Assembly: GCF_030730205.1 (NCBI RefSeq)
Contig: NZ_JANQVQ010000048.1
Location: forward strand, 1-49,401
From: Paraglaciecola sp.
GTDB lineage: Bacteria > Pseudomonadota > Gammaproteobacteria > Enterobacterales > Alteromonadaceae
DNA length: 49,401 nt
Direction: 5' to 3'
Part shown: positions 32,855-49,401 of the stretch, piece after piece
How the letters are laid out: every line of letters begins with the position of its first letter
How positions within the stretch are numbered: position 1 is the stretch's first letter
Program-made: the position numbers and the translations under genes
Notes under the pieces: model-generated
The model's input: the letters and a program-made list of their open reading frames with translations, nothing else
Told to the model about the DNA's origin: nothing
Databases searched by the model: none

Positions 32855-33171
32855 TTTATACGCACCACCACTTCTTCTGTAGGTTCAGGGCGGTGCATAT
32901 CTAATTTTTTTTCTACTAAAGACTCAATGCGATTATGCTCAGTTAACGCGCTTTGCTCTAAGACCAAATGACGCCACTCAACATCAAGGTGATCTTGCTG
33001 CTGCATGAGTTTTTCTAGGGCAATGGCCATCTGTCTATTGTGGTGAGCACTGAGAATTACAGCGATAGCACTGATCAATACCGCTATAAACAATAAAACC
33101 CGCAAAGGATGGCGGGCTAAGTCAGCGAAGATAAAACTGAATAAATTAAAGTTGGTATTCGCGTTTGTCAT
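32851..33171 (-). CDS. ftsL: Cell division protein FtsL
   Basis: This is a small bitopic protein of 106 residues: a cytosolic tail, one membrane helix (about 24-43, [18 protein letters not shown]) and a periplasmic coiled coil that pairs with FtsB and binds FtsQ. Sequence identity in this family is low, so the call rests mainly on its size, layout and place between rsmH and ftsI. It overlaps both neighbours by four bases. Confidence 0.93.
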
Positions 33172-34103: not shown

Positions 34104-34561
34104 TAGAGCGCAAAGTCCTGTAAACGTTCGGTTAATTCAAAATCAGCTTGTTGTTCTGTTTCCACATCCAAGCTAATTTGCTGTTGCCAAACTTCAGCGT
34201 CCCACAACTCAAATTTATTAAATTGGCCAACTAACATGATTTGCTTATCTAATTTTGCATGTTGGCGCAATGGCGCACTCAGTAAAAAGCGGCCGTTTTT
34301 ATCCATTTCACCTTCCATTGCATAGCCCAACAACAAACGCTGTAAGCGACGCTCATGAGGATTCATACTGGATAAACGAGATAGTTTTAATTCAATTTCT
34401 TCCCATTCGGGAAGTGGATAAAGCAGCAAGCAGGGTTGTTGTGTGTCAATCGTGCAAACCAGTTGTCCCTGACAATCGTCCAGCAAAGACTGACGATACC
34501 GAGTGGGTATCGTAACGCGTCCCTTTAAATCTAGACTGATTGCATTAGCGCCGCGGAACAT
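34103..34561 (-). CDS. mraZ: Transcriptional regulator MraZ
   Basis: MraZ is the ring-forming AbrB-like regulator that represses its own dcw operon. The 152 residues hold two repeated halves: the first with [22 protein letters not shown], the second with [18 protein letters not shown]. Each half carries the DxxGR motif that contacts DNA, as DLKGR and DKNGR. It is the first gene of the operon, and its probable operator lies 60-90 bases upstream of the start. Confidence 0.97.
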
Positions 34562-34619
34562 GCCCCTAACCTTTTTTAATTTTTATCTGTCGAATTGAAC
34601 TGATTGCGCGCTAAATCGA

Positions 34620-34653
34620 CCTCTTTGATCCACTTTACGCCACTTTTACCCAC
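34620..34653 (-). promoter_or_regulatory. MraZ operator: four GTGG-type boxes at 10-bp spacing
   Basis: On the minus strand GTGG occurs at 34650-34653, 34640-34643 and 34630-34633, with a related GAGG at 34620-34623, so each box starts exactly 10 bases after the last and the spacers are A/T-rich. E. coli MraZ is known to bind TGGGN direct repeats separated by five bases, the same helical period. The array lies just after the predicted start of transcription, fitting autorepression. Confidence 0.85.
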
Positions 34654-34660
34654 GATGCAC

Positions 34661-34690
34661 AGTTTAGGTACCACAACCATCGCATGTCAA
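34661..34690 (-). promoter_or_regulatory. Promoter of the mraZ/dcw operon
   Basis: The minus-strand -35 box is a perfect TTGACA (34685-34690). After 18 bases comes TAAACT (34661-34666), a 4/6 -10 box. Transcription would begin just before the MraZ boxes, so a bound MraZ ring would block promoter clearance. Confidence 0.65.
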
Positions 34691-35041
34691 GGACTAAAAA
34701 CAGTAAATTGAAAGCGGTGCAAGCCACTAAAAATAAGGCTTTGCCGAAGTGTATGATATCGCTAGAAAAACACTAAAGGTGACGCAAAAGGGGTACAGCG
34801 GAATATCACATAAAAGATAGGCATTCAGGTCATAGTTAGCCGTATTACCGAACACTCAAGCGGCGGACTTAAAAGCATAATACTCAGGAGTTAAAAAAAG
34901 GTAAATTTAGTGGGATATTATGTATTTAAGTAATATTATACTATTAATAAAAACGAGTTATTTTCACTTTTTACTGAATAATCATAAGCTTAAGGAAATA
35001 TACGGTGCGGCGCAATAGTAAATTAGGCCCAGTACAACGTC
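34691..35041. other. Intergenic stretch between the mraZ promoter and the sugar operon
   Basis: No gene is visible in these 351 bases. The half near the SDR gene is very AT-rich and must hold the plus-strand promoter. TATACT at 34937-34942 is a possible -10 box, without a good -35. It lies inside an imperfect 21-base palindrome (34927-34947, 14 of 20 positions symmetric), a candidate operator for the FadR-type regulator encoded at 37684. Both are weak calls. Confidence 0.3.
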
Positions 35042-35809
35042 ATGACTAACCATGCCATTTACCCCAGTCTAAAAGACAAAGTGGTTTTTATCACTGGGGG
35101 CGCATCAGGTATTGGCGCTGTCATGGTAGAGGCTTTTTGTCGTCAACAAGCCAAAGTTATTTTTATCGATATCTTGCCAGATGTTGCTCAAAAGCTGTGT
35201 GAAAAAGTAACAAGCAGTTGCAACAATCCTCCTGAATTTGCACTCTTAGACGCCACCGATATTGATGCCTTACAAGCTTTCATTGCAAACATTCCTCAAC
35301 GTTATAAACAGCTCGATATCCTTATAAATAATGTAGCGAATGACATGCGCCATTCCCCGCTAGAAGTGACGCAACAAGCTTGGCGCGATTGTCTATCGGT
35401 TAATTTAGACGCAACGTTTTTTGCGTCCCAAGCGGCAATAAAAATCATGCGGGGCAACCATAAGGGTAATATTATTAACATCAGCTCAATCAATGTATTG
35501 ATTGGGCCCCGACAAATGCCTGGGTATGTGGCTGCGAAGTCGGCGCTGAATGGGTTAAGTAAATCATTAGCCAATCAATATGGTGAATACGGTATTCGAG
35601 TGAACAGTATTTTGCCCGGCTGGGTAACGACAGACAAGCAGTTGTCTCTGTGGTTAAGCCCTGAAGCAGAGCGAGAATGGCAAAAATCCGTTGCCTTAAA
35701 AGGCCGACTCGAATCTTACCACATTGCCAACATGGCATTATTTTTAGCGGCAGACGACAGCGCTATGATCACCGGCCAGCAGTTTGTCGTTGATGCGGGG
35801 CGCACGTAA
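35042..35809 (+). CDS. SDR-family sugar dehydrogenase, candidate galactose dehydrogenase
   Basis: This classical short-chain dehydrogenase has 255 residues. The cofactor loop is TGGASGIG (18-25), with an acidic residue (Asp43) at the end of the second strand that favours NAD+. The catalytic set is Ser149, Tyr162 and Lys166, with NNVAN in the NAG position. Alone, the family does not define the substrate. Its operon partners (2-keto-3-deoxygalactonate kinase, lactonase, aldose epimerase) suggest oxidation of an aldose, most simply D-galactose, to its lactone. The next ATG overlaps its TAA stop by one base. Confidence 0.85.
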   Translation: MTNHAIYPSLKDKVVFITGGASGIGAVMVEAFCRQQAKVIFIDILPDVAQKLCEKVTSSCNNPPEFALLDATDIDALQAFIANIPQRYKQLDILINNVANDMRHSPLEVTQQAWRDCLSVNLDATFFASQAAIKIMRGNHKGNIINISSINVLIGPRQMPGYVAAKSALNGLSKSLANQYGEYGIRVNSILPGWVTTDKQLSLWLSPEAEREWQKSVALKGRLESYHIANMALFLAADDSAMITGQQFVVDAGRT

Positions 35810-36744
35810 TGAATGCTAAAAGCGGCTTGATGGTCTTAGGTGACTGGGGAACCAGTGTCAGTCGTTTTTATCTTTGCCGTTTTTATCAACAACACTTGAC
35901 CGTCTTGGCCCGTTCACAGGGACGGGGGATAAAACATATTAGCGATCCCGAAGCCTGTTTTTTTGAATTATGCCAAGATTGGTTTAATCAATATGGCCCC
36001 TTGCCAGTATTTTTAATTGGTACAGTGGGCGCTGACATTGGCTGGAAAAAAGCCCCTTACGTGGCCTGCCCTACTGATAAACATCAATTATTAGAAAATG
36101 CCATTACCTTTCAAGCCAAGGGTATCGATATCACAATATTACCGGGTGTGACATGCACCAATCATTACGATTTGCCCGATATAATGCGCGGCGAAGAAAC
36201 GCAACTTTTTGGTTTTTTGTCGCAATATCCGCAGCAAAAAGAGCAATTGGTTTGTTTACCGGGCACCCATACAAAATGGGCTTTGTTGGCCAATAATCAG
36301 ATCCAATCTTTTGTAACCAGTCCAGTAGGTGAGCTATATGAAGTGCTCAATCAGCACAGCGTACTATTGAACCCCGCGATCAATCAAAAAGCCTGCAGTG
36401 TAACGTTTACTCAAGGTCTGCAAGTCGGCATGAGTGAAAATAGTAATGTGCTGCATACGCTCTTTGCCACTCGCTCGTTGCAAGTCATCAATAATATGGA
36501 CAACAGTCAAGCGGCGGGCTATTTGTCTGGTTTGCTCATTGGCGCCGATGTAAAAGCGGCGATGAAAGACTTTCATTTATTTTCAGACGTCAGTGTTATT
36601 GGTTCAGACTATATCTGCAGTTTATATGTGCAGGCACTCAACCATATTGGCATTACGAACAAACTGTTCAGTAGTGAAGACGCCACCATTTTGGGCATGC
36701 AAGCCTTGGCCGCAACCAACTGGGAGTCTTATATTAATGAATAA
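35809..36744 (+). CDS. dgoK: 2-dehydro-3-deoxygalactonokinase
   Basis: DgoK phosphorylates 2-keto-3-deoxygalactonate to the 6-phosphate, the fourth step of the galactonate branch of sugar oxidation. The start LMVLGDWGTSVSRFYLC is the phosphate-1 motif of the sugar kinase/actin fold. GMVGADIGW-type and CLPGTHTKWALL segments, followed by FVTSPVGELYEVL, are typical of the family. The length of 311 residues is slightly longer than E. coli DgoK. It starts on the stop codon of the dehydrogenase and overlaps the lactonase start by eight bases. Confidence 0.88.
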   Translation: MNAKSGLMVLGDWGTSVSRFYLCRFYQQHLTVLARSQGRGIKHISDPEACFFELCQDWFNQYGPLPVFLIGTVGADIGWKKAPYVACPTDKHQLLENAITFQAKGIDITILPGVTCTNHYDLPDIMRGEETQLFGFLSQYPQQKEQLVCLPGTHTKWALLANNQIQSFVTSPVGELYEVLNQHSVLLNPAINQKACSVTFTQGLQVGMSENSNVLHTLFATRSLQVINNMDNSQAAGYLSGLLIGADVKAAMKDFHLFSDVSVIGSDYICSLYVQALNHIGITNKLFSSEDATILGMQALAATNWESYINE

Positions 36745-37627
36745 TGAGCTCATCTTAGCACATCAGCTATTGGTCAATAATACCTTGGGCGAGGGCGTAA
36801 TTTGGGACCATCGAACACAACGACTCTATTGGACAGACATTCTGCAAAATAAGCTATATTGCTGGGATTTTGATGGTAACTTACAACGTTACCCTTGCCC
36901 TGAGGCCTTAGCCAGTTTTGGTTTTACTGATGACCCGCAGTGGCTCATTTGCGCCTTTGCATCGGGTTTTGCATTTTTTAATCCTAGGCATCAAGAGGTG
37001 CGTTGGCTCAATCAATTAAACCTCCCCATTGGCGTCAGACTGAATGACGGACGAGTCGACCGACAAGGCCGCTTTTGGGCCGGCTCCTTAGTCGATAAAA
37101 CACAAAATGCGCAAGACTCAGGCTCTTTATATCGATTGAATTTTGATGCAAGCATCAGCGAGCAAACTCGCGACGTGCACATTGCCAATAGTTTGTGTTG
37201 GAGTATCGATAGCAAAAAGGTGTATTTTGCTGACTCGCCGAAACGTTGCATACAAACAGCTTCTTTCGATGCAACAAGCGGCAATATCGGACCATTCCAA
37301 GATTTTGTCCATACTGACAGAAGCGCCTTTCCTGACGGCGCTTGTATTGACAGCGAAGGGTGTTTATGGAGCGCCCAATGGGGCAGTGCCACAGTAAAAC
37401 GTTACAGCCCACAAGGTAGTTTATTACTCACCTTGACCGTACCGTGTAAGCAACCGAGCTGTGTGAGTTTTGCTGGAGAAAACCTACAATATTTATGCGT
37501 CACTTCGGCATGGCAAGACCTTAAAGAAACACAGATTAGCCAGTACGATGGCGGACTTTTTATTTATAAAACGCCCTACACTGGCTTACCCGAAGCACTA
37601 TGTAAGATGCCCATGTCCGCCGCTTAG
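36737..37627 (+). CDS. SMP-30 family sugar lactonase
   Basis: This is a six-bladed propeller lactonase that opens aldonolactones to the acid. The start is the ATG at 36737, where it overlaps dgoK (ATGAATAA); the frame extends 48 codons further inside dgoK but these belong to the other gene. The metal ligands line up with those of the human protein: Glu19 (LGEGVIW), Asn103 (RLNDGRVD), Asn151 (HIANSLCW) and Asp200 (FPDGACID). The context points to galactonolactone as substrate. A gluconolactone or arabinonolactone specificity cannot be excluded by sequence. Confidence 0.88.
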   Translation: MNNELILAHQLLVNNTLGEGVIWDHRTQRLYWTDILQNKLYCWDFDGNLQRYPCPEALASFGFTDDPQWLICAFASGFAFFNPRHQEVRWLNQLNLPIGVRLNDGRVDRQGRFWAGSLVDKTQNAQDSGSLYRLNFDASISEQTRDVHIANSLCWSIDSKKVYFADSPKRCIQTASFDATSGNIGPFQDFVHTDRSAFPDGACIDSEGCLWSAQWGSATVKRYSPQGSLLLTLTVPCKQPSCVSFAGENLQYLCVTSAWQDLKETQISQYDGGLFIYKTPYTGLPEALCKMPMSAA

Positions 37628-37683
37628 CGCAATACATATGCACTTCATAAGCTATTTTATGTTGAAGACTAAAAGAGAAAAAC

Positions 37684-38412
37684 ATGGCAACGAGAATGTT
37701 TAGCGGAAATTTTACTCAGCACATCGTGCAGTCACTTGGAAAAGCCATTGCCTTGGGCGAGTACCCACAAGGCCAACCTTTGCAGGCAGAAGCTCTATTG
37801 TGCGAATCATTCGACGCAAGTCGCACCGTACTGCGCGAAGCGGTAAAAATGTTAACAGCCAAAGGCATGTTAGATGCACGCCCTCGCCGAGGTACTATTG
37901 TTTTACCCGAATCACAGTGGAATTTATCAGACCCCGATATTCTAAACTGGATGTTAGCACGCAAAGGTAATCTGCCGATTATTTCTGAATTTGTTGATAT
38001 GCGTTTGGCCATAGAGCCCGCGGCCACAGCCCTGGCGGCTAAAAACTTAAATGAAGCAAGTAGACTTACCCTGTTAAAAGCCATGGAGCGAATGAAGGCG
38101 GCGGATCGCGGCGAGGATGATCACTTAGACGCGGACATTGCCTTTCATGTTGGTATTTTAGAAGCCAGTAACAATCGTTTTTTCTGGAATATGCGCCATA
38201 CCATCGAAGTAGCCTTGAGATTTAGTATTCGCATGACTAACCGATTTAAAGGCGTTGACCGAGCTAGTGTGGATGACCATCAACAAATTCTCGATCTCAT
38301 CTTAGCGGGCAATCAACAAGGTGCAGAAGATCAGATGCGTAGCTTATTGATAGAAGCTAAAACCCTATTGAATAACGCCTTAGATGAAGAAAAATTAAAA
38401 AAAACCCAATAA
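37684..38412 (+). CDS. FadR/GntR-family regulator with FCD domain, DgoR-like
   Basis: The N-terminal winged helix (about residues 10-75) contains the recognition part SRTVLREAVKMLTAKGMLDARPRRGT. The C-terminal FCD domain binds a metal and an acidic ligand, with Asp151, His155 and His199 as likely metal ligands. The overall pattern, including SDPDILNWML, resembles DgoR-type regulators of sugar acid catabolism. It probably represses the surrounding locus and is released by a sugar acid or keto-deoxy acid; this is inferred from position and family. It is placed between the lactonase and glycerol kinase genes. Confidence 0.88.
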   Translation: MATRMFSGNFTQHIVQSLGKAIALGEYPQGQPLQAEALLCESFDASRTVLREAVKMLTAKGMLDARPRRGTIVLPESQWNLSDPDILNWMLARKGNLPIISEFVDMRLAIEPAATALAAKNLNEASRLTLLKAMERMKAADRGEDDHLDADIAFHVGILEASNNRFFWNMRHTIEVALRFSIRMTNRFKGVDRASVDDHQQILDLILAGNQQGAEDQMRSLLIEAKTLLNNALDEEKLKKTQ

Positions 38413-38435
38413 AGTTGTAAAGGACAAGAATAACC

Positions 38436-39929
38436 ATGCAGATCTCAAACTGTGTACTTGCTATCGATCAAGGAACGACCTCTACTCGAGCCATTGTATT
38501 TGCGCCAGACTCCAGCATCGTTGCCGTCGCTCAACAAGAATTCGCCCAGCATTATCCCCATGATGGATGGGTAGAACATGACCCTGAAGATATATGGACC
38601 TCTACGGTAGTGGTATGTCGCGAAGCAGTATCAAAAGCCATTGCAAAAGGGGCAAGGATCGCAGCCATCGGCGTAACCAATCAACGTGAAACCACAGTAG
38701 TGTGGGATCGCAATACCGGCCAAACTATTTACAACGCCATCGTATGGCAAGACAGAAGAACCGCCAGTGTCTGTCGAAATTTACAAGAGAAAGGCTTATT
38801 TGAAGAAGTTAACTCTCGTACGGGCTTATTACTTGACCCTTATTTTTCAGCCTCAAAAGTGGCATGGATCTTAGATAATGTTGAGGGCGCGCGAGTCAAA
38901 GCAGAAGCCGGAGAACTTGCCTTTGGCACCATTGATTCATTTTTAATATGGCGCCTAACCGATGGACAAATGCATGCCACCGATGTCACCAATGCCAGTC
39001 GTACCAACCTCTTTAATATTCATGATATGACGTGGGACGACAAGCTACTCGAAATATTTAATGTACCCAAGTCAGTGTTACCTACAGTAAAAGAGTGTGC
39101 GGATGATTATGGTCACACCAATGACGAGTTATTAGGTTTCTCCTTACCTATACTTGGTGTGGCGGGTGATCAACAAGCCGCCAGTATTGGCCAATGCTGC
39201 TTTAAACAAGGCACCATCAAAAGCACATACGGTACTGGATGCTTTGTAATGCTCAATACCGGCGAAAAAGCCTTTGCTTCTAAAAACAAGTTACTCACCA
39301 CTGTCGCCTATACCATTAAAGGTACAACCCATTATGCCCTAGAAGGTTCTATTTTTATTGCCGGAGCCGCAGTTCAATGGTTGCGGGATGGCCTAGGCCT
39401 CATACGAAGTGCCTCAGAAACTGAGGCGCTGGCGAAATCAGTCGACGATGATCATGGTGTTTTCATGGTTCCTGCTTTTGCTGGTTTAGGTGCCCCGCAT
39501 TGGGCGCCAGATGCAAGGGGCGCAATTTATGGATTAACACGTGGCACCACGAATGCGCATTTTGTGCGTGCAGCACTTGAGTCTGTTTGTTATCAAACCA
39601 CTGACTTAATGCATGCGATGGCCGAAGATGGTGTATCCATTAAGAAAATCAGGGTTGACGGCGGCATGGTTGCCAATAACTGGTTGTGTCAGTTTTTATC
39701 CAATATTCTCGATGTCACAGTTGAGCGACCTAAGTTAATGGAAACTACCGCATTAGGTGCAGCCTATCTTGCCGGTTTACAAGCTGGTATTTATAACTCA
39801 ATTGAAGAACTTACCCTGCTGAATCAAGTTGATGTTGAATTTACCTCTACAATGGACAGTCCCAGCCGAGAGCGACTTCTCAAAGGTTGGCAAAGCGCGG
39901 TGCAAAGCACCTTAGGATTCCAAGCATGA
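38436..39929 (+). CDS. glpK: Glycerol kinase
   Basis: GlpK makes sn-glycerol 3-phosphate from glycerol and ATP. The FGGY-kinase signature is full length (497 residues; E. coli 502): [14 protein letters not shown] at the N-terminus, [39 protein letters not shown] with the catalytic Asp, and [16 protein letters not shown] site AAAGGA precedes the ATG. It lies in a sugar oxidation operon instead of with glpF, so glycerol is probably released inside the cell. Its stop overlaps the galM start (ATGA). Confidence 0.95.
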
Positions 39930-40984
39930 TCAAAACAGCACATTTTGGCCAACTCCCAAATGGTCAAGCAGTTGAGCAAATAAGCTTAATCAATCGTAAA
40001 GGGATGCAAATAGATATCCTTAATCTTGGTGGCATTATTCGGCGTTGGTTAGTACCCACATCGGCTGCATCACCTACAGATATTGTTCTAGGCTTTGATT
40101 CATTAGAGGATTATCTTGCGGATCAAGCTTATCTTGGCGCGCTGGTTGGGCGCTACGCCAACCGTATAAAACATGGACAGTTTTCGCTGGATAATAAGGC
40201 CTATCAGGTCGATGTTAACCAAGGTGGAAACTGTTTACACGGTGGGTCTGATGGTTTTAATCGCCGTGTTTGGCACACCAGCGTGATAAACGAAGGCCTT
40301 AACCCCAGCATACGCTTACAACTTATCAGTGAAGACGCTGACCAAGGATTTCCAGGACAGCTCAATGCAGAAGTCATTTATACGCTAACGGAAGAAAATA
40401 GCTTACGTATTGAATACAAAGCGACAACGGATCACCTTACCTTGTATAACCCCACTCAACATAGTTACTTTAATCTTGCTGGCCACCAGAGCGGTAATAT
40501 TAACCATCACCATGTGCAGATGTTTGCCAGTTATTTCACGCCAACAGATGCGAATGCCATTCCAACTGGCGAATTATTAGCGGTGGATAATACCCCCTTT
40601 GATTTACGAAAGATGACGCCCGTTATGCAGGGTCTAGCGAGTGAACATGAACAGATAAAAATAGGTAATGGCTATGATCACAATTGGTGTTTAGACGGAT
40701 TTAACACCGGCGCTGCGCAGCCCACACTTGCGGCTATTGCTATTGATGAAACGGCAGGACTAACCTTAAAAGTATTTACCACTATGCCGGGCATGCAGCT
40801 TTATACAGCCAATTACTTAGGGCCAGAGCCTAAAGGAAAAGAAGGTATTGCCTATCAAGGTAACGGAGCATTGTGTTTTGAAACACAATTCTATCCAGAC
40901 TCTCCCAATCAAAGCCACTTTCCCTCTGCGCAGCTAGCGCCAGGCCAACGCTTTTATTCAGTCACTGAGTATCAACTGAGTTGA
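39926..40984 (+). CDS. galM: Aldose 1-epimerase (mutarotase)
   Basis: GalM interconverts alpha and beta anomers of galactose and similar sugars, which speeds supply to anomer-specific enzymes. The start ATG at 39926 overlaps the glpK stop; the frame is open 13 codons upstream but these lie inside glpK. Catalytic residues are visible: His179 in [13 protein letters not shown], His105 in NCLHGG and Glu319 in [13 protein letters not shown]. The length of 352 residues is normal. No signal peptide is seen, so it is cytosolic. Its presence supports galactose as the sugar. Confidence 0.95.
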
Positions 40985-40992
40985 TACTCAGT
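40964..40992. repeat. Perfect inverted repeat across the galM stop codon
   Basis: Two 13-base arms (ACTGAGTATCAAC and its complement) flank a 3-base loop and contain the last codons and the TGA of galM. It could stabilise the 3' end of the message. There is no T run directly behind it, so it is not itself a terminator. Confidence 0.8.
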
Positions 40993-41005
40993 GTTGGAAG
41001 GACAT

Positions 41006-41034
41006 AAAAAAACCAGTCAGGAGACTGGTTTTTT
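41006..41034. terminator. Bidirectional terminator between galM and sapC
   Basis: A 12-bp stem (AAAAAACCAGTC with GACTGGTTTTTT, 4-base loop) gives a T-run in both directions. It serves the convergent ends of the galM operon and the sapC gene. Confidence 0.9.
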
Positions 41035-41049
41035 GAGGCTGGCGTAAAA

Positions 41050-41805
41050 TTACGCTGTCGCTTCTTCTTTTGCAGGCTCTTCAATTCTAAGTTGCAATGA
41101 TTGAATCGGCGTTTCACCTTCGGTAGACATTTGTACTAAACGGTTTAGTTGGCCTAGTGATAATAAGATCGCATAAATGGCACCAAGGAAACCAGCTTTG
41201 TGCAATTCAAGAGTTTGCTCATCAGACAGCTCATGCAAGCGTTTTTCACTGATGCTCTGCATACCATTGATGTTGCGTTGTTGGCCGCTGGCATATTGAA
41301 CACGTAAAACGATAGGATCAAGTAATTTCAATTCAATCAATTTCTTGATAAAACGTTGAGTGGCCATTTCGCTATTGGCAAGCTCTGACAACAATTTCTG
41401 GCGATTGTCTAAATAAGGACTGGCTTCACCCGTTTCAGTAAATAACAATTCACCTTCTTCTTTACCCACTAAAGGGCTGTCCGCATCAATATAAACGCCC
41501 AATTTGTCGCCATCAGGACGCACATCAAAAGGGTAACGCTGGATATTTAAAGGCACACTGTGCGCGCTCCACTTACCAGATTGCATGTATAAGTTAACGT
41601 TCTGCTCAGTGCCTAACATAACCACGCTGTGAGTAATTTCTGATTTAGGATCTTTCACAAACACAATAGGCATACAACTAGCTAGTTGCGCATATTCTTT
41701 CAAAGATGCAGCGGCGATATGGGCATCTTTTACATGGGCAAATTCGTGATTTAGATTAACGCGAAGGTCTTTATGTTTTTCTTTATCTAAGGGGATATAG
41801 TTCAT
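41050..41805 (-). CDS. SapC family protein, first copy
   Basis: The 251-residue soluble protein is counted from the ATG at 41805 with a GAGAAG site; the longer upstream frame looks non-coding. It shows the SapC (PF07277) layout: FAHVKDAHIAAASLKEYAQL, CMPIVFVKD, WSAHSVPLNIQRYPFDVRP, ELLFTETGEASPYL, and a C-terminal part with LGAIYAILLSLGQLNRL. SapC was first linked to S-layer secretion in Campylobacter. In marine bacteria it is widespread in glycan loci with TonB receptors and halogenase-like proteins; its function there is unknown. It is diverged from the second copy at 45798. Confidence 0.85.
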   Translation of the reverse strand: MNYIPLDKEKHKDLRVNLNHEFAHVKDAHIAAASLKEYAQLASCMPIVFVKDPKSEITHSVVMLGTEQNVNLYMQSGKWSAHSVPLNIQRYPFDVRPDGDKLGVYIDADSPLVGKEEGELLFTETGEASPYLDNRQKLLSELANSEMATQRFIKKLIELKLLDPIVLRVQYASGQQRNINGMQSISEKRLHELSDEQTLELHKAGFLGAIYAILLSLGQLNRLVQMSTEGETPIQSLQLRIEEPAKEEATA

Positions 41806-42194
41806 GGAATACTTCTCTTTTATATTTTGTTTGTGATGGCTATTTGCTGAGCTGCCAAGTAATTCGTTCTGTTCAATTGCTACAAATGGAAATCTGGAGA
41901 TGTTTGACGTGCCCACTAATCCGTGTCACTAATTCAATCTGCAAGAGGACAAACCTAGCAAAAACGGCCAAAAGTATCTTATATTTGCCGGCTTTTGTCA
42001 CCCCATGCTTACAGCTTATTTACATACGCCACATGACGTTGCAATTCATAATTAAATTCAGTAATAAAAACAAAACCTTAGTTAGGTTAAAAAAATGAAC
42101 TTTTAGAGAGTAATACGTGATACAAACGAAGTGCGTGTAGCAAATGAGCAAAATGAGGCGCTGAATTTATCTATTCAACACCTCTTTTATCAGC
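41806..42194 (-). promoter_or_regulatory. Upstream region of the first sapC gene, with a candidate promoter
   Basis: No gene is seen in these 389 bases. On the minus strand GTGACA (41996-42001) and GATACT (41973-41978) are separated by 17 bases, a 5/6 and 4/6 match to sigma-70 boxes, giving a leader of about 160 bases before sapC. No riboswitch fold was recognised. Confidence 0.35.
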
Positions 42195-42548
42195 CTATTT
42201 GATTAAGCGTATTGCGAAAGGCGTTAAATAATATTCCCCGTTAGAGGCTTTTATTGCGCCTAAAACACAAAAAATTAAATGGCACAAACCAAGCACGGGA
42301 AACAACAACGCGCCAATTAATATGATGGTTAAAATAAAACAGATAAAGTAACCAATAGCAGCCGTGATACACCAATTCAATGCTTCTTTGGCATGACCAC
42401 AAATAAACGCATCGTCTTTTTTAACCAGATACATCACCAATCCAGGGATAAAGCCAAAAAATATCGTACCTATCCAAGTCAGTAGTGCTAAATTTTTTGA
42501 ATCTTGATCAACGACGACCCTTGAAACCTCATTTTCAAAATCATTCAT
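42195..42548 (-). CDS. DUF4870 family membrane protein
   Basis: This is a small inner-membrane protein of 117 residues with about three helices. The pattern LALLTWIGTIFFGFIPGLVMYLVKKDD, CGHAKEALNW, and a last helix ending near GAIKASNGEYYLTPFAIRL matches DUF4870. A GGAGT site precedes the ATG. Its function is unknown. It lies 141 bases behind glpD on the same strand, so it may be at the end of the uptake operon or independent. Confidence 0.85.
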   Translation of the reverse strand: MNDFENEVSRVVVDQDSKNLALLTWIGTIFFGFIPGLVMYLVKKDDAFICGHAKEALNWCITAAIGYFICFILTIILIGALLFPVLGLCHLIFCVLGAIKASNGEYYLTPFAIRLIK

Positions 42549-42672
42549 AGGAACTCCTTTCTATTAAGCCTTGTTGTTTTGCTTCCATTTCAGTTTGAAT
42601 GACGCTGAAGCGGTAATCAACACTGATGATTGAATCTAAAACGAAACCCTCACCAGTGCAATAGCGCAGCAA
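42541..42672 (-). CDS. Candidate small gene between glpD and the DUF4870 gene
   Basis: A minus-strand frame of 43 residues could start at a TTG at 42672 and stops at 42541, overlapping the DUF4870 start by eight bases. The second half (VLDSIISVDYRFSVIQTEME) has a natural composition with a plausible helix. The start codon has no clear ribosome site, and I do not recognise the family. It may be chance. Confidence 0.2.
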   Translation of the reverse strand: MLRYCTGEGFVLDSIISVDYRFSVIQTEMEAKQQGLIERSSYE

Positions 42673-42689
42673 TAAACATGAGCCGCGCC

Positions 42690-44303
42690 TTATGGGGCAG
42701 AGATACTGTCTTTATACTCTTGCAACTTGGCTTTTGCCTCATTGCCAAACAGAATTTCACAGGCTTCAACTAAACCAGGCGCCCCCAAGATATCTTCATC
42801 TCGAACCACCAAAGAGATTTTCGAACGCCGACGGAGAAAGTCTTCTAGTTTAGTCACCATTTCTCGCTCAGCAGCATGCTCTATTTCAACTCTCAGGTAT
42901 TCTGACTTTTCGATAAGTAGCTCTGCTTTTTCAGGGTTCTCACGAATTTTTTCTAACATGTTGATGGCATTGCGTCCATAACGTCGCCAGAATCGAGAGG
43001 TCAAAGGCTCTGAAGAGGTAGGCGGCGTCAAATTATCAAACCCCATCAACTTAGCGCGATGGAAAAACTCATCTCTTACTGTGTCGTCGGGCTCGCCATA
43101 CCATTTGTAATGATTGTAGGGTAACGACACCCCAAACTTCTCAACGATAGCGGCTACTTCATCTCCGACGTTGATACAATCTGTCAACTTTCCACCGAAA
43201 ATAGACATGTAGTTGTGTTCATCATGGCTATCAATGGCGTGTTTTCGAGACAGCTGAACCCAATCGGCCTTGCCTCCAGAACCTTTTATCGCTAAGGGAC
43301 GCACACCACAACGTTCAGAAATAATATCGTCTTTGGTCAACGGTTTTTCAAGAGCCAATAATTTGTTGACGTTGTCCAATACAAACTGCCTATCTTTTTC
43401 CGTGACATGGGTTATGGGGCTTTCAACTTGGGTATCAGTGGTACCAATACAGGTTTTAGGCCCCATAGGGATAACAAAAAACAAGCGGCCATCATCAGCA
43501 AAGAAGGTTAACACTTTATTGCTTGGCGTAATGCGATCCACAATAAGATGAATCCCTTTCGAGAAAACATGATGATGTTCAGTCTTCTCATTGTTGACCA
43601 CATTTAAGGGATCAACAAAAGGGCCAGCGGCATTAATTAACACCTTAGAGCGAACTTCAAACTCTTGACCCGAGATACAATCTTTCGCTTTTGTATGCCA
43701 AATACCGTCAGAACGCTTAGAGCCAAGTGATTCAACATAATTGGCCGCGATACAGCCGTAACTCATGCTTGAGCGGATGAAGTTAAATACAAATCGCGCA
43801 TCGTTGTCGTATAGATATGCGTCTGAATATTCAAAGCCCCCAGCAACATTTTGAGTGTTAACCACACTCTCCATTGACTTGATTTTATCACCGGATAAGT
43901 AACTGGGCATTTTGGTGAAAAAGCGCCCCATTACCCAGTAAAGTAAGGTACCCATGTAAATAAACAGCGGAGGAAAACGAAAGCCTTTTTGAATACTGGT
44001 CAAAAAGCGAATTTCTTTAACCGTTGAGGGATAACTGCGCATCAAGTGGTTACGGCTCTTGCACAATTTATTGACCAAACCGTATTCATAACTTTCTAAG
44101 TACTTAATACCACCCCACGCTAAATTAGATGAATTAGAGCTAGTGAAGCCTGCAAAATCACCTTTATCAATTAAAGCAACCTTTACCCCTTTCGCAGCCA
44201 GTGCTGCAGCAGACACAGCCCCATTAATTCCGCCACCTACAATCAGGACGTCGTAGGTTCCTTGGGGCAATTTACTAATATTACTTTTTCTTAAGTTGCT
44301 CAT
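42690..44303 (-). CDS. glpD: FAD-dependent glycerol-3-phosphate dehydrogenase
   Basis: GlpD oxidises glycerol 3-phosphate to dihydroxyacetone phosphate at the inner membrane, passing electrons to quinone. The FAD loop is VLIVGGGINGAVSAAAL (Gly23-Gly28), with GFTSSNSSNLAWGGIKYLE as the second family motif. VLINAAGPFVD and the C-terminal helical domain are present. The length of 537 residues is in the normal range. It lies 25 bases behind the symporter gene, in the uptake operon. Together with glpK across the locus it completes glycerol use. Confidence 0.94.
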   Translation of the reverse strand: MSNLRKSNISKLPQGTYDVLIVGGGINGAVSAAALAAKGVKVALIDKGDFAGFTSSNSSNLAWGGIKYLESYEYGLVNKLCKSRNHLMRSYPSTVKEIRFLTSIQKGFRFPPLFIYMGTLLYWVMGRFFTKMPSYLSGDKIKSMESVVNTQNVAGGFEYSDAYLYDNDARFVFNFIRSSMSYGCIAANYVESLGSKRSDGIWHTKAKDCISGQEFEVRSKVLINAAGPFVDPLNVVNNEKTEHHHVFSKGIHLIVDRITPSNKVLTFFADDGRLFFVIPMGPKTCIGTTDTQVESPITHVTEKDRQFVLDNVNKLLALEKPLTKDDIISERCGVRPLAIKGSGGKADWVQLSRKHAIDSHDEHNYMSIFGGKLTDCINVGDEVAAIVEKFGVSLPYNHYKWYGEPDDTVRDEFFHRAKLMGFDNLTPPTSSEPLTSRFWRRYGRNAINMLEKIRENPEKAELLIEKSEYLRVEIEHAAEREMVTKLEDFLRRRSKISLVVRDEDILGAPGLVEACEILFGNEAKAKLQEYKDSISAP

Positions 44304-44328
44304 TGCGTTTCCGATACTATTCCAACAA

Positions 44329-45795
44329 TTACTCTTTACCCACTAATTCCATTCCATCGTTGCTACCCCACGCAAACTTAGCGCGTTGGCCAAAGACGAA
44401 TCTATTAATGAATAGTGCAAAACTAATACAAGAGATCAACGTAACAGGCATCAAATGTATATAGTGCCAAGACGAATGTAAGGGTGAGAATTCAAAGGTC
44501 AAAGAGCCATACATCAATACGCCAAAAATAACTGCCGCAATGCCCGCTCTTGCATCAACATCTTTAAAGACCAAGCCCACCACAAAAATCGACAATATTG
44601 GCATACTCAGTAGACCATTAAGTTGTTGCAGTAAATTGATGATGCTGTCTGCTTGTTGATATATCGGCACTAACACTAATGAAAATATCGTTAACAATGC
44701 CGTTACCCAACCACTTAAACGCGCCACATTAGGGCTCTTATTAAAGTAAGCTTCATGAATATCACATACATACAAAGCTGTAGCAGAGTTTAACAAGCTG
44801 TTGTAGGTAGATAACACGGCCGCCGCCATAGCGGCAGCAAATACACCGGTTAACCAAAGAGGCATCACGTCTCCCACAATACGTCCATAGGCGGCATCAC
44901 CGATATCACCGTATAACTTAAAGGAGATAATGCCAGGCAAAACAATGATGGCCGGAACGATTAAGATACGGATAACCGCAGCTGCATATACGCCTTTCTG
45001 CGCTTCTTTAACATTGGGCGCAGCCATGGCTCTTTGCGTAATGGTTTGGTTGGTTCCCCAGTAGTACATCTGAATAAAGATCATACCGGTTAACAGGGTT
45101 TGCCAAGGTAAGGGTGAGTCTTCATCACCAATTAAGGTCAAACGATCCGCAGGGATGCCACTAAAGTCGAAATCAATGGCGTATAAAGAGAGAAACACCA
45201 CCAAAATAGCCATAGTAAGTAGCAATACACCAGAATAGGTATCTGACACTGCAACTGCACGTAAACCACCAAAGATAGCGTAAATAGCACCTAGGGCAGC
45301 AAAGGCAATTGCAATATACATGAGCGGGATATCAACATTGAACATGGTTTGCATAAATAATGAACCAGAATAGATAACCGCTGGCATATAAATCAATGCA
45401 TTACCTAAGAAAAACAACATACCAATAACCGCGCGGATATGTTTGTTGTTGTAACGTTTTTCTAATAATTCTGTGGTGGTAGTACAGTTATATTTGTAGT
45501 AAATCGGAATAAATACTTTAGCTAAAATAATCAAACCAATGACGGCCGCAAACTCCCACCAAGCTAACAAAGCCATCTGGTTACCATTCATACCAACAAG
45601 CTGATCCGTACTCAAATTGGTCAGGGTGATAGAGCCCGCAACAAATACCCAGGTTAATCCGCCACCCGCTAAAAAGTATTCTTTGTTTTGGCTTTGTTTA
45701 CTGTGCCCATGGCCACGACATTTTAAGTAGGTTAATAAACCAATAAAGGCCGTTACTGCGCCAAAGACTAAAGCTTGAATCATATTCTCTGACAT
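44329..45795 (-). CDS. SGLT-type sodium/sugar symporter (SSS family)
   Basis: This inner-membrane transporter has 488 residues and about 13-14 helices in the LeuT-like fold of the solute:sodium symporters. Close parallels to the Vibrio Na+/galactose carrier are STDQLVGMNG with the following WWEF, and YYWGTNQTITQRAMAA, which in that protein contains sugar-binding Asn, Tyr and Trp residues. The FAAAMAAAVLSTYNSLLNSA segment carries the Na+ site serines. Galactose or a galactoside is the likely cargo by motif and context. It sits between the second sapC and glpD. Confidence 0.92.
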   Translation of the reverse strand: MSENMIQALVFGAVTAFIGLLTYLKCRGHGHSKQSQNKEYFLAGGGLTWVFVAGSITLTNLSTDQLVGMNGNQMALLAWWEFAAVIGLIILAKVFIPIYYKYNCTTTTELLEKRYNNKHIRAVIGMLFFLGNALIYMPAVIYSGSLFMQTMFNVDIPLMYIAIAFAALGAIYAIFGGLRAVAVSDTYSGVLLLTMAILVVFLSLYAIDFDFSGIPADRLTLIGDEDSPLPWQTLLTGMIFIQMYYWGTNQTITQRAMAAPNVKEAQKGVYAAAVIRILIVPAIIVLPGIISFKLYGDIGDAAYGRIVGDVMPLWLTGVFAAAMAAAVLSTYNSLLNSATALYVCDIHEAYFNKSPNVARLSGWVTALLTIFSLVLVPIYQQADSIINLLQQLNGLLSMPILSIFVVGLVFKDVDARAGIAAVIFGVLMYGSLTFEFSPLHSSWHYIHLMPVTLISCISFALFINRFVFGQRAKFAWGSNDGMELVGKE

Positions 45796-45797
45796 TT

Positions 45798-46547
45798 TTA
45801 TTCCTCTGCAGCAACGCGCATTTGCACGCCTAAAATAGTATTTTCTGAACGATGATTGTGTTGCTTAATCAGGCGATTTACCTGAATAAGGGAAGACAAA
45901 ATGGCGTGAATGGGGAGCAAAAAGTTTTGCGTATTAAGCTCCAATACTTGTGCTTCTGGTAGCTGACGCAAGGTCTCTTCATCAACGGTATAAATACCTT
46001 TAACGCGTGTTTTTTTACCATCACCGAATTCTATAGCCAACTCGATTTCTTTCAGCAGATTTAAGGCGAGTAACTTCTGGGTAAATTGATGGGTTAATTG
46101 TTCTTGCTGATAGTATTCGCCCATCTTATTTTGTACTTGTTGCAAAAATTGGCTTGCTTCGCCATTTTGAAAAAGCGCCACGCCCTCTGATTGACTTACG
46201 TAATCACTTTGCTCATCAATATAAATGGTTAACGTTTTCTCTTTTGCAGGATCAGCTCCTAACTCAAAAGGTTGGCGTAAATAGGCTGAAGGCACATGCA
46301 CCGCTAACCATTCTTGTTCGGTAAAAAATACATTTTCACCCGCCAGTAAACTCAATAAGGCAACAGCCCGAAACTGGCCCTGAGTTGGCTCTTTCATATA
46401 AACAACTGGAAAACTACTTGCAGCCGCACCAAACTCATGCACGACTAATGACGCGTGATGCTGGTGTTTCGAAAAGGCAAAATTGCTGTGTGGTTTTATT
46501 TTTATATCCTGATGGGTAGCAGGATCAAGTAGTACATAGTTAGACAT
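45798..46547 (-). CDS. SapC family protein, second copy
   Basis: This 249-residue soluble protein has the same layout as the copy at 41050: FAFSKHQHHASLVVHEFGA, FPVVYMKEPTQGQFRAVALLSL, VHVPSAYLRQPFELG, GVALFQNGEASQFL, and LPIHAILSSLIQVNRLIKQ at the end. The two copies share motifs but differ at most positions, so the duplication is old or the copies came separately. It stands between the halogenase-like gene and the symporter gene, two bases from the symporter start. The role of SapC in TonB receptor loci is unknown. Confidence 0.85.
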   Translation of the reverse strand: MSNYVLLDPATHQDIKIKPHSNFAFSKHQHHASLVVHEFGAAASSFPVVYMKEPTQGQFRAVALLSLLAGENVFFTEQEWLAVHVPSAYLRQPFELGADPAKEKTLTIYIDEQSDYVSQSEGVALFQNGEASQFLQQVQNKMGEYYQQEQLTHQFTQKLLALNLLKEIELAIEFGDGKKTRVKGIYTVDEETLRQLPEAQVLELNTQNFLLPIHAILSSLIQVNRLIKQHNHRSENTILGVQMRVAAEE

Positions 46548-46569
46548 GTTTATCTCTCGTCAGAGGGTA

Positions 46570-48111
46570 TTAAAGTTTCGAAAAACCTAAGGTGTTTACT
46601 TTATTGATAAGCTCTCTGTGTGTAGGCAGGGTGTATCTCAGTTGTTCGATACGCTTTTGCGTCATCTGCAATTGTTTTTTAGCCAACTCACTTTGCTTAT
46701 AGATATGTTTCATCTGACTAAAATCAGACTTAAAACCCACTCCATACAGAATATATTGATAACTTGCAGCGCTAAATGCTTCCATGCTATCGGTAAAATC
46801 ATATTCATTGGGTGAGCGGTAACGCCACAGAGCAAGAAGCTCTTTTAAGGACTCAGGTACGCTGTGACTTTGGCGATGTTGTAACCAAAAAGGTTCTGTG
46901 CGCTCACTTAAGGCATAATGCAACTTAAGAAAATCAATCACCCCACGCCACTTTTTCAACATCATGGTGTTAAAGCGTTTTGCCACTAATGGCATTAATG
47001 CGGTATTGGCGGGCAGTTGATCAGCAATAAAGTTAGCTGACGTTTCAATCAACATTAAGGCAGACGCTTCAAGAGGCTCTAAAAATCCAGCGGCTAATCC
47101 CACCGCTACGCAGTTGTTTTTCCAGAATACCTCGCGGTGCCCAGGTTTGAAGTTTATCTTCTTTGCATTCTCTACTGTTTCACAGCCAATGTACTGAGCC
47201 AGCGTTTTACGTGCTTCGTCTTCAGAGCAATGTTGGCTTGAATACACATAGCCTACTCCACGACGCTGCTGCAAACCGATATCCCAGATCCAGCCCGCTG
47301 TTTGGGCCGTTGCGATAGTATGACAAGCAATAGGATCATCAGCTTGGATATAAGGCACTTGAGTAGCTAATGCGGTATCAGCTAAAAACACATCGTCGCA
47401 GGGCACAAAAGGCACCTTTAATGTATCAGCCAGTAACACACTGCGCATGCCTGAACAATCAACAAATAAATCCGCTTTTTGCATACCATGCTCTTTGGTT
47501 TGCAGCGCGTTAATGTCACCACTAGTATCTTGCTCGATGCGTTCTACCGTATCGCAAATATGCTCAACACCAAGCTGACTCACACAATGTTTTCGTAACA
47601 AGGTAATAAACTTAGCTGCATCGAGATGATAACCATAATTGGCGATCACTTCGTATTCTTTATTGGCAATTGTTTTTGGCGCAAGGCCATGTTCGCAAAG
47701 GTATTGCTGAAAACTGACAGCTTCAGAGAATGAGCAAGTAGCATCAACCGCCGACTGCCAATAAGGCGCAGGATCGATTTTATTGAAGCCCTGCGGTTCG
47801 GTAAACGGGTGGTAATACACATCGTTATTAGCGGTGATCCAATTAACAAATTTACTGGCTTGTTTAAAGGTAGCGCCACATTCACGCATAAATTGTGTTT
47901 CAGAAATGCCCAATTGCGCTAGGGTTTTACGCATAGTTGGCCAAGTGCCCTCACCGACTCCCACCACAGAAATGTCAGGTGATTCGATGAGACTGACTTT
48001 GATGCCTTGTTCAGCTGAATGACTAGCGTGTTTTTTTGCAAGAATGCCTGCAGTTATCCACCCTGCCGTTCCACCACCAAGGACAATAATTCGTTTAATA
48101 ACACCAGACAA
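46570..48111 (-). CDS. Tryptophan-halogenase-like flavoprotein
   Basis: The fold is that of FAD-dependent halogenases. The FAD loop is VLGGGTAGWITAGIL, then VGVGEGTWPTMRKT. The catalytic Lys lies in FKQASKFVNW (Lys88 counted from a TTG at 48126), and the second catalytic residue, Glu, is in GFLEPLEASAL. The halogenase motif WxWxIP reads WIWDIG, so Pro is absent. I choose the TTG at 48111, eight bases behind GAAGG. In such loci these proteins occur with TonB receptors and SapC, and halogenation has not been shown, so the substrate is unknown. A terminator separates it from the receptor gene. Confidence 0.85.
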   Translation of the reverse strand: MSGVIKRIIVLGGGTAGWITAGILAKKHASHSAEQGIKVSLIESPDISVVGVGEGTWPTMRKTLAQLGISETQFMRECGATFKQASKFVNWITANNDVYYHPFTEPQGFNKIDPAPYWQSAVDATCSFSEAVSFQQYLCEHGLAPKTIANKEYEVIANYGYHLDAAKFITLLRKHCVSQLGVEHICDTVERIEQDTSGDINALQTKEHGMQKADLFVDCSGMRSVLLADTLKVPFVPCDDVFLADTALATQVPYIQADDPIACHTIATAQTAGWIWDIGLQQRRGVGYVYSSQHCSEDEARKTLAQYIGCETVENAKKINFKPGHREVFWKNNCVAVGLAAGFLEPLEASALMLIETSANFIADQLPANTALMPLVAKRFNTMMLKKWRGVIDFLKLHYALSERTEPFWLQHRQSHSVPESLKELLALWRYRSPNEYDFTDSMEAFSAASYQYILYGVGFKSDFSQMKHIYKQSELAKKQLQMTQKRIEQLRYTLPTHRELINKVNTLGFSKL

Positions 48112-48147
48112 AGTTTTTACCTTCAAATTGCTTGTTAAACTCCAAGC

Positions 48148-48174
48148 AAAAAAGGGGATTACATCCCCTTTTTT
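48148..48174. terminator. Terminator between the TonB receptor and halogenase-like genes
   Basis: A perfect 11-bp stem (AAAAAAGGGGA with TCCCCTTTTTT, 5-base loop) follows the receptor stop by about 20 bases. It should end most receptor transcripts, leaving the downstream genes to leak-through or another promoter; none is visible in the 37 bases that remain. Confidence 0.9.
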
Positions 48175-48194
48175 AACTTACAAGCATAACCTTA

Positions 48195-49401
48195 CTAGAA
48201 TGAACCTCTAACACCAACTGCGTAGCGCGCACCTGAACGAACTTGCTCAGTGAAGTGACTAGCTAAACTACCATGCTTAGAAGTGTACTCATCAGTAATA
48301 TTGATACCTTCAAATACAACCGTAAAGTTTTCGTTAATGTCATAACTCGCACTTACGTCCCACTGGCCATAAGTATCAACATACTCAGGCTCACCGGTAT
48401 CACCATTACGTAAGGTTTGTAAGAATGACTCACGATTATTGAAGGCAACACGTGCTTGGAAGCCATCTTTTTCATAGAAACCGACCAAGTTTTGTGAATC
48501 ACCTAGACCTTCTAATTGGAAGCCATCATCACTAGAGCTATTCACAATAGTTGCGTTGGCTTGAATACCAAAACCGCTTTCCCACGTGTGTGTCCAGGCC
48601 ATTTCTAAGCCTTCAACTTGTGCACTAGCACCGTTACGCGGACGGCTTACAGAAAAGTCATAACTTCCGCTTGCAAGAGAGAATGCCTCAATTGCTGGCG
48701 TTACCGAGATGAATCCTTCTACGTCTTTGCTAAAGATACCGATAGACACAGCGCTAGCATCAGCGTAATACCACTCGTATGACACATCCCAGTTAGTCGA
48801 TAGGAAAGGCGTTAAATAAGGGTTACCACCACTTGCTAGTAAAATATCAGGACGAGTCGTACCAATATTGGTTACTGGACGCATTGCTTCTAATGTTGGA
48901 CGGGTAATGGTTTCTGAATACCCAAAACGCAACAACATGTCTTCTTCAATTTCAAACTTAACGTTTACACTAGGTAAAAGATTCGTGTATGAATTTTTAA
49001 GAGAAATAGGCACTGAAGCACGTTGACCGTTTTCATCTTCTATATACGTTTGATCTAGAATTGTACCGTCTAAAGGATTTTGCGAGATATCAAGTAAAGT
49101 AGCCTGATTACCCGAAGCAGTTGTATCTGTTTCGCTATAACGAACGCCTACATTCACTGTCCATGGCATATCACCAAGATCACCTTGGAAAACAAAATCA
49201 GCGTAGGCTGACATGATTTCTTCTTCGATTTCAAAACTGGTACCAAGCTCAACAGGGGTATAACCATTTAGCGCAGCAAACGCAGCAATATTATCAGCAG
49301 CAACTTCACCGCGGTTAGCCGATTGACCTGTAATAGCTGCGTCAGATTCTAAAAACGAAAGATAATCATCAACATTGTAACCGAAGAAAGAAGATGGGAT
49401 A
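48195..49401 (-). CDS. TonB-dependent receptor, C-terminal part, cut by the window edge
   Basis: The frame stays open to the last base of the window, so 402 residues of an outer-membrane receptor are seen and the plug domain lies beyond the edge. Beta-barrel character is clear from alternating stretches such as WTVNVGVRYSETDTT, LLPSVNVKFEIEEDMLLRFG followed by SETITRPTLEAM, and the C-terminus ARYAVGVRGSF with a terminal Phe recognised by the Bam machinery. The pattern fits the Xanthomonas/Caulobacter-type carbohydrate receptors. It probably imports the locus's glycoside across the outer membrane, powered by TonB-ExbBD. Confidence 0.92.
   Translation of the reverse strand, partial: IPSSFFGYNVDDYLSFLESDAAITGQSANRGEVAADNIAAFAALNGYTPVELGTSFEIEEEIMSAYADFVFQGDLGDMPWTVNVGVRYSETDTTASGNQATLLDISQNPLDGTILDQTYIEDENGQRASVPISLKNSYTNLLPSVNVKFEIEEDMLLRFGYSETITRPTLEAMRPVTNIGTTRPDILLASGGNPYLTPFLSTNWDVSYEWYYADASAVSIGIFSKDVEGFISVTPAIEAFSLASGSYDFSVSRPRNGASAQVEGLEMAWTHTWESGFGIQANATIVNSSSDDGFQLEGLGDSQNLVGFYEKDGFQARVAFNNRESFLQTLRNGDTGEPEYVDTYGQWDVSASYDINENFTVVFEGINITDEYTSKHGSLASHFTEQVRSGARYAVGVRGSF

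Follow-up and report, generated by a model that had tools for sequence, protein, structure and literature searches.

Floridoside is among the principal soluble photosynthates of red algae, and plastid lipids consist mainly of galactolipids. In the open PubMed Central (PMC) literature, covered by titles and abstract openings and exclusive of subscription papers and non-PMC preprints, we found no bacterial gene locus for the use of floridoside or galactosylglycerol. The report that comes nearest concerns Alteromonas macleodii ATCC 27126, where the carbon-responsive TonB receptor MASE_00935 lies beside an alpha-galactosidase and galactolipids are the predicted substrate (Manck et al. 2020, PMC7190382). 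On the algal side, alpha-galactosidase, glycerol kinase, glycerol-3-phosphate dehydrogenase, GALT, and GALE are among the enzymes listed for the way in which Neoporphyra haitanensis, a red alga, metabolizes floridoside (PMC8703398). Here, we describe a locus of Paraglaciecola sp. (GCF_030730205.1) within a window of 49,401 bases, that is, bases 1–49401 of contig C48 (NZ_JANQVQ010000048.1; 63051 bases) in a draft assembly of 5.18 Mb. It is a sugar locus of the TonB receptor/sodium:solute symporter (SSS) type with a glycerol arm. Judged from sequence comparison, it probably serves the catabolism of an alpha-galactosyl-glycerol: floridoside, isofloridoside, or digalactosyl-glycerol, which forms the head group of digalactosyldiacylglycerol (DGDG), a plastid lipid.

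An initial annotation of the window had described a sugar half (SDR dehydrogenase, SMP-30 lactonase, DgoK, and GalM), a glycerol half (GlpK and GlpD), and facing uptake genes (TonB receptor and SGLT-type symporter) in one compact locus, with a galactosyl-glycerol as the proposed substrate. All of these genes were recovered where they had been placed (Table 1); the GlpD-like protein is a divergent member, its score to PRK12266 falling short of the NCBIfam equivalog cut-off of 360 bits. The compactness is borne out, given that positions 35042–40984 form a single tightly packed operon-like row that couples glycerol kinase with galactose mutarotase, while the uptake genes and the GlpD-like gene occupy the opposite strand. 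Within the row, the SDR and DgoK genes overlap by 1 base, DgoK and SMP-30 by 8 bases, and the GlpK stop and GalM start share ATGA; 56 bases separate the GntR gene and 23 bases the GlpK gene from what precedes them. The row from SDR to GalM is probably one transcript. The annotation had named a search for a galactosidase to the right of position 49401 as its check, and the same contig indeed encodes a GH36 alpha-galactosidase in that region, with a GlpR-type repressor next to it. Genes for an alpha-galactosidase, for glycerol and galactose use, and for uptake stand together in one locus, and this combination recurs in relatives.

The GH36 protein (718 residues) aligns over residues 110–657 with solved alpha-galactosidases and, compared with these, keeps both catalytic aspartate motifs, KWD at 449–451 (KWDMN) and WTSD at 513–516 (WTSDSND). 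The family assignment is clear, and a galactosyl-glycerol is its putative substrate. Since the N-terminus (MALSYSSLLV) has no signal peptide recognizable by eye, hydrolysis is expected in the cytoplasm, which requires that the glycoside enter the cell uncleaved, with the SSS protein as candidate carrier. This symporter scores 387 bits against PRK10484, short of the cut-off of 401, and its best solved match is vSGLT (2xq2/3dh4, E 4.7e-46), the sodium/galactose symporter of Vibrio parahaemolyticus. Counted on the alignment, vSGLT residues Q69, E88, Y263, and Q428 are retained as Q65, E81, Y245, and Q390, whereas K294, S91, N260, and N142 are replaced by R276, A84, Q242, and Y136. The columns of the K294, S91, and N260 changes and those of the retained site residues are invariant among 20 locus symporters. 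Given the roles of these residues in the vSGLT galactose site, it is plausible that the ligand has a galactose-like end, the part to which the alignment speaks.

In the glycerol half, GlpK passes its equivalog model and is the sole GlpK-like match of the genome at a threshold of E 1e-90, the next best FGGY protein being a xylulokinase. The function proposed for the GlpD-like protein is based on long alignments to E. coli GlpD (2qcu, residues 16–499 of 537) and to 3da1. Three stretches of the E. coli enzyme that lie near the substrate, GGxxYLE, VRPL, and FGGKLT, are retained in it, with K replacing R in GG(L/I)(R/K)YLE. The GlpR-type repressor passes NF008154 (PRK10906, DeoR/GlpR family) by a thin margin (Table 1). 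A tblastn search, for which E. coli glpF served as the positive control, covered the window and 132 fetched loci, two of them from this contig, with the rest of the genome outside its scope. It returned no GlpF, and this absence fits glycerol being freed inside the cell. Related loci carry two unlike GlpD types, the canonical type and that of the window (64–87% identical, in 12 of 50 fetched loci). At L122 (genome G632, 8893–10235) and L138 (7973–9482), GlpD is split into two adjacent open frames and is possibly a broken gene.

For the galactose half, DgoK is the sole PF05035 match in the genome, and both of its solved matches are named as 2-oxo-3-deoxygalactonate kinase or putative 2-dehydro-3-deoxygalactonokinase. 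The SDR and SMP-30 families needed for the galactose dehydrogenase and galactonolactonase steps are present, and no above-cut-off model names their sugar; the best NCBIfam model for the SDR is xylose 1-dehydrogenase (267 bits vs a cut-off of 400). GalM passes PRK11055 and reaches 347 bits against TIGR02636, below the cut-off of 398. The GntR/FCD regulator is 41–88% identical where present in 50 fetched loci. The interpretation of the sugar half as a galactose-oxidizing pathway is supported by fuller gene sets elsewhere, assigned by similarity. One locus of Kordiimonas aquimaris (L228) holds GH36, GH42, SDR, DgoK, a 2-keto-3-deoxy-6-phosphogalactonate (KDPGal)-type aldolase, an IlvD/EDD dehydratase, SMP-30, and GlpD, and one of Pseudomaricurvus alkylphenolicus (L220) holds SDR, DgoK, KDPGal-type aldolase, IlvD/EDD dehydratase, GH36, and GH42, with no recognized lactonase. 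This bacterium can use galactose in any event, as GalK and GalT are encoded together on contig C125, outside the locus. The oxidative branch may even be dispensable, given that in same-genus regions L122 and L123 the SDR, DgoK, SMP-30, and GntR genes do not lie between mraZ and GlpK, the stretch that was checked.

To gauge recurrence, 295 genomes of the family were surveyed, with symporter matches taken to E 1e-120 and GlpK relatives to E 1e-90. The symporter is present in 64 genomes and a GlpK relative in 192. In at least 39 of the 64 symporter-bearing genomes, GlpK starts no more than 20 kb from the symporter; by our own estimate, chance proximity would be ~1% per genome (40 kb in 4–5 Mb). 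Gene order varies among relatives. The order receptor-SSS-GlpD-SapC facing GalM-GlpK-GntR is common to this genome, L057, L121, and L124; Alteromonas has GlpD-GlpR facing GlpK-receptor-SSS-GH36; Rheinheimera has SSS-GH42-GH36-GntR-SDR-(DgoK)-GlpD-(GlpK), and Pseudoalteromonas has the same without GH42.

An earlier contig scan queried with DgoK gave no match. A scan with an alignment of 20 symporters gave 517 relatives, the best 80 of which form an 80-locus set; genes were assigned by similarity within 10 kb of the symporter, and this flank limit makes the counts lower bounds. The set holds GH36 in 68 loci, GlpK in 39, a secreted alpha/beta hydrolase relative in 35, and GH42 in 19. Among the 68 GH36 loci, 39 have GlpK and 51 have at least one of GlpK, GlpD, and GlpR. 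SDR or DgoK accompanies GH36 in 27 loci, GalK or GalT in 13, and both kinds in 5, so that the galactose module appears exchangeable between the De Ley-Doudoroff type, the Leloir type, or both. The galactosyl-glycerol proposal of the initial annotation gains support from GH36 and from the recurrent pairing with glycerol genes across many genera, whereas the exact compound is one that we infer. A contrast within the set (glycerol genes in 51 of 68 loci with GH36 vs 1 of 12 without; Fisher 1.9e-5) was dropped, at least two of the negatives, L156 and L214 from Shewanella, being cut by the flank inside a GlpD-like gene.

In the mechanism we propose, the TonB receptor would bring the glycoside across the outer membrane, and the SGLT-type symporter would import it intact with sodium, as suggested by its family and by a GH36 enzyme without a visible signal peptide. 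Cleavage by GH36 would yield galactose and glycerol. GlpK would phosphorylate the glycerol, the GlpD-like enzyme would then form dihydroxyacetone phosphate by oxidation, and the GlpR-type repressor would act as sensor; the families of these three proteins are established by their matches, as are those of the galactose half. There, GalM would convert galactose, SDR and SMP-30 would oxidize it to galactonate, and DgoK would phosphorylate 2-keto-3-deoxygalactonate, with the dehydratase and aldolase steps lacking a clear dedicated gene. GalK and GalT, both encoded on the contig named above, may offer an alternative route for the galactose. Floridoside would be the best fit for this genome because it needs just GH36 and the glycerol and galactose genes, as found in the locus, and we weigh a floridoside-type substrate somewhat above a galactolipid-type one here. 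The red-algal enzyme list also counts for an alpha-galactosyl-glycerol as substrate.

Several observations weigh against a dedicated alpha-galactosyl-glycerol system. Regarding distribution, among the matches listed, 22 of the 64 genomes have their GlpK outside the 20-kb range around the symporter, and three genomes have no GlpK entry. In 7 of the 10 other same-genus symporter genomes, GlpK is 0.2–3.3 Mb or a contig distant, and 15 of the 22 genomes lie beyond these seven. The five symporter blocks fetched from the seven read GH36-receptor-halogenase-SapC-SSS-GlpD-SapC, with GlpD adjoining the symporter, and the three GlpK regions fetched from them show the same SDR-DgoK-SMP-30-GntR-GlpK-GalM row beside mraZ. 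No glycerol gene falls within the fetched flank in 17 of the 68 GH36 loci, and the loci and genomes are related by descent, so the counts are not independent. As the only GlpK found in the genome, the locus enzyme must also serve ordinary free glycerol. Among 105 related full-length GH36 proteins, the KWD[MF]N pattern is missing from eight and the acid/base pattern from one. A search for an operator common to the two blocks, using GntR/FCD-like palindromes and upstream alignments across same-genus and sister genomes, including genomes with both halves apart, found none; similar AT-rich stretches lie upstream of the SDR and TonB receptor genes and contain no convincing common site.

The lower De Ley-Doudoroff steps also weigh against such a system. 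SDR, SMP-30, DgoK, and GalM are present as the initial annotation had it, but no clear dgoD or dgoA homologue was found in the genome. Genome-wide, the IlvD/EDD matches are IlvD and Edd only, with no clear candidate for a galactonate dehydratase. Five enolase-type proteins exceed the Pfam cut-off, and the best of these to galactonate dehydratase PRK14017 reaches 249.9 bits (contig C237; cut-off 311). Proteins on contigs C159 and C18 (L019 and L020) pass the PRK15072 "D-galactonate dehydratase family" subfamily model (584 and 737 bits; cut-off 430) as well as a mannonate dehydratase equivalog. No KDPGal-type aldolase was recognized in the genome, where the two PF01081 matches reach 85 and 100 bits against PRK09140, for which the cut-off is 207. 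These KDPG/KHG aldolases both score far higher to Eda-type models, one lying in an Entner-Doudoroff operon and the other in an alginate-like region; a promiscuous Eda could stand in for the KDPGal aldolase. Inspection of G000:C245:1-11000 (L012), alginate-type by sequence look, revealed an Eda-type aldolase, transhydrogenase-like subunits, a sugar-kinase-like protein, an MFS transporter, a polysaccharide-lyase-like protein, a GntR regulator, and an SDR.

The most tenable alternative, which we regard as possible rather than probable, keeps the system and changes its natural substrate from floridoside to deacylated plastid galactolipid head groups, digalactosyl-glycerol from DGDG or galactosyl-glycerol from monogalactosyldiacylglycerol (MGDG). 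A secreted hydrolase would strip the acyl chains, and GH42 would cleave the beta bond. The frequency of both families in the 80-locus set speaks for this alternative, their assignment resting on family scans of one protein each (PF12740/PF03403 for the hydrolase and PF02449 for GH42), as does the galactolipid substrate predicted for the A. macleodii receptor (PMC7190382). Relatives that carry GH42 and the secreted hydrolase may be able to use the head groups of DGDG and MGDG, and the hydrolase family is a possible galactolipase. Five same-genus genomes (G428, G479, G502, G521, and G622) have the hydrolase beyond GH36 and a dipeptidase-like gene; in two others (G539 and G632), it is not beside the block. 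The Paraglaciecola genome studied here has a hydrolase relative at C276 (65% to a copy from the same genus) and a pair of GH42 genes (C29 and C127), but all are unlinked and neither family occurs within the locus. Moreover, hydrolase and GH42 co-occur in just 6 of the 68 GH36 loci, a flank-limited count. Signal-like N-termini were seen on the hydrolase at L059:15181-16584 and on its relatives at L060, L069, L113, L128, L130–L132, L135–L137, L143, L145, L147, and L148.

It is unlikely that an alpha-galactoside locus and general glycerol genes are independent neighbors by accident. The solitary GlpK of this genome and the separate blocks of the seven same-genus genomes would be expected in that case, but the co-localization counts across genomes indicate more than chance, as the proximity of GlpK and symporter persists through several gene orders. 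In addition, GlpK overlaps GalM, the GlpR-type gene adjoins GH36, and GlpF was not found in these loci. A control based on DgoK, matched in 53 of 394 genomes of the order, points the same way. From the 32 best-scoring loci (31 genomes, some loci cut by contig ends), GlpK or GlpD was found in 4 of 9 with GH36 but in none of the 23 others (Fisher p 0.0035). Moreover, five GH36 loci were scored as lacking, and for two of them, those of G160 and G234, GlpK and GlpD occur beyond the stretch fetched first (L150 and L151).

We consider melibiose, raffinose-type sugars, or galactomannan side chains, from which the second product would be glucose or sucrose instead of glycerol, improbable as substrates. 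The solved GH36 relatives do include AgaA and the alpha-galactosidase-sucrose kinase AgaSK, but no sucrose or glucose gene occurs among the nameable genes of C48 at 35–56 kb, the scope of that comparison being this contig and not the unnamed genes of related loci, and glycerol genes recur instead. Sulfoquinovosyl-glycerol, the plant sulfolipid head group, is very improbable: sulfoquinovose 1-dehydrogenase ranks third among the solved matches of the SDR, which it resembles, but the glycosidase is a GH36 with both catalytic motifs, the glycosidases known for sulfoquinovosides being of GH31 type, and the kinase matches 2-keto-3-deoxygalactonate kinases.

Table 1. Features of the Paraglaciecola locus on contig C48, with family or model scores.
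Feature	Position	Strand	Match
SDR-family dehydrogenase, proposed galactose 1-dehydrogenase	35042..35809	+	PF13561/PF00106
DgoK, 2-keto-3-deoxygalactonate kinase	35809..36744	+	PF05035 257 bits, cut-off 25
SMP-30 family lactonase	36737..37627	+	PF08450 233 bits
GntR/FCD transcriptional regulator, inside plus-strand row	37684..38412	+	PF00392 and PF07729
GlpK glycerol kinase	38436..39929	+	TIGR01311 703 bits, cut-off 590 (equivalog passed)
GalM aldose 1-epimerase	39926..40984	+	PF01263 277 bits; PRK11055 312 bits, cut-off 240
SapC family protein	41050..41916	-	PF07277 227 bits
GlpD-like FAD glycerol-3-phosphate dehydrogenase, divergent	42690..44303	-	PRK12266 251 bits
SGLT-type sodium:solute symporter (SSS), proposed galactoside importer	44329..45795	-	TIGR00813 218 bits, cut-off 184
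SapC family protein, second copy	45798..46547	-	PF07277 206 bits
Tryptophan-halogenase-family flavoprotein	46570..48126	-	PF04820 399 bits
TonB-dependent receptor, C-terminal part	48195..49401	-	TIGR01782 301 bits (cut-off 310 missed by this piece); PF00593 93 bits
TonB receptor, N-terminal part, past window end	to C48 position 51133	-	
GlpR-type repressor, past window end	C48:51750-52508	+	NF008154 332.6 bits, cut-off 331
GH36 alpha-galactosidase, past window end	C48:52714-54870	+	PF02065 432 bits, cut-off 27

Beyond these subjects, the neighborhood offered further observations. The halogenase-family protein occurs in 69 loci of the 80-locus set, beside SapC and the TonB receptor, a trio on which a literature search found nothing. 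In 100 of 108 proteins of related loci (some genomes counted in two sets), it carries GWIWDIG at the position where halogenases carry WxWxIP. The small minus-strand protein among the SapC and GlpD-like genes is presumably DUF4870-type. A scaffold gap of 100 N (C48:49402-49501) lies within the TonB receptor gene and coincides with the window end; the repeated 55-base stretch that flanks it (49347–49401 and 49502–49556) is an assembly artefact in the receptor gene. Downstream of GH36 on C48 are a dipeptidase-like gene and then an RND-type pump, both named from sequence look only. The mraZ/mraW genes (33168–34561) adjoin the GlpK row here and in nine fetched regions (L058 and L118–L125), even when the uptake block lies in another part of the genome. 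Scanning 34500–42700 for sigma-70 sites and terminators returned fewer of them than shuffled sequence did (11 vs 16.8 and 5 vs 8.1, respectively), and the result was left unused.

Taken more broadly, the locus may represent a widespread, so far undescribed marine alpha-galactosyl-glycerol system across Alteromonadales, Cellvibrionales-type, and Kordiimonas-type bacteria, a proposition that we rate as evenly balanced. The symporter and GH36 would be its conserved core. The galactose module (Leloir or De Ley-Doudoroff) and the GlpD type would be interchangeable, GH42 together with a secreted hydrolase would be optional, and floridoside and plastid galactolipid head groups would be a standard diet. 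If the substrate prediction for the locus is right, the marker set of symporter, GH36, and GlpK would reveal the turnover of floridoside and galactolipid compounds from marine genomes.

Among the closest described systems, the floridoside metabolism of N. haitanensis differs in being eukaryotic and in comprising synthesis and internal turnover with no uptake system (PMC8703398). The locus resembles the De Ley-Doudoroff pathway in encoding an SDR-family dehydrogenase, an SMP-30 family lactonase, and DgoK side by side, whereas the dehydratase and KDPGal-type aldolase are missing from it and not clearly present in this genome. Relative to the E. coli glp genes (glpR, glpF, glpK, and glpD), a GlpR-type repressor, GlpK, and a GlpD-type enzyme are present here, but GlpF is absent from the locus, the genes are scattered over an alpha-galactoside locus, and the GlpD is divergent. 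The A. macleodii receptor MASE_00935, a possible counterpart, differs in that the words "glycerol," "sodium," "halogenase," and "glycerol kinase" are absent from the main text of PMC7190382. The likeness to that system, drawn by description, lies in the adjacency of TonB receptor and alpha-galactosidase in a bacterium of the same family, and many Alteromonas loci of the 80-locus set carry GlpD, GlpR, GlpK, receptor, symporter, and GH36 together.

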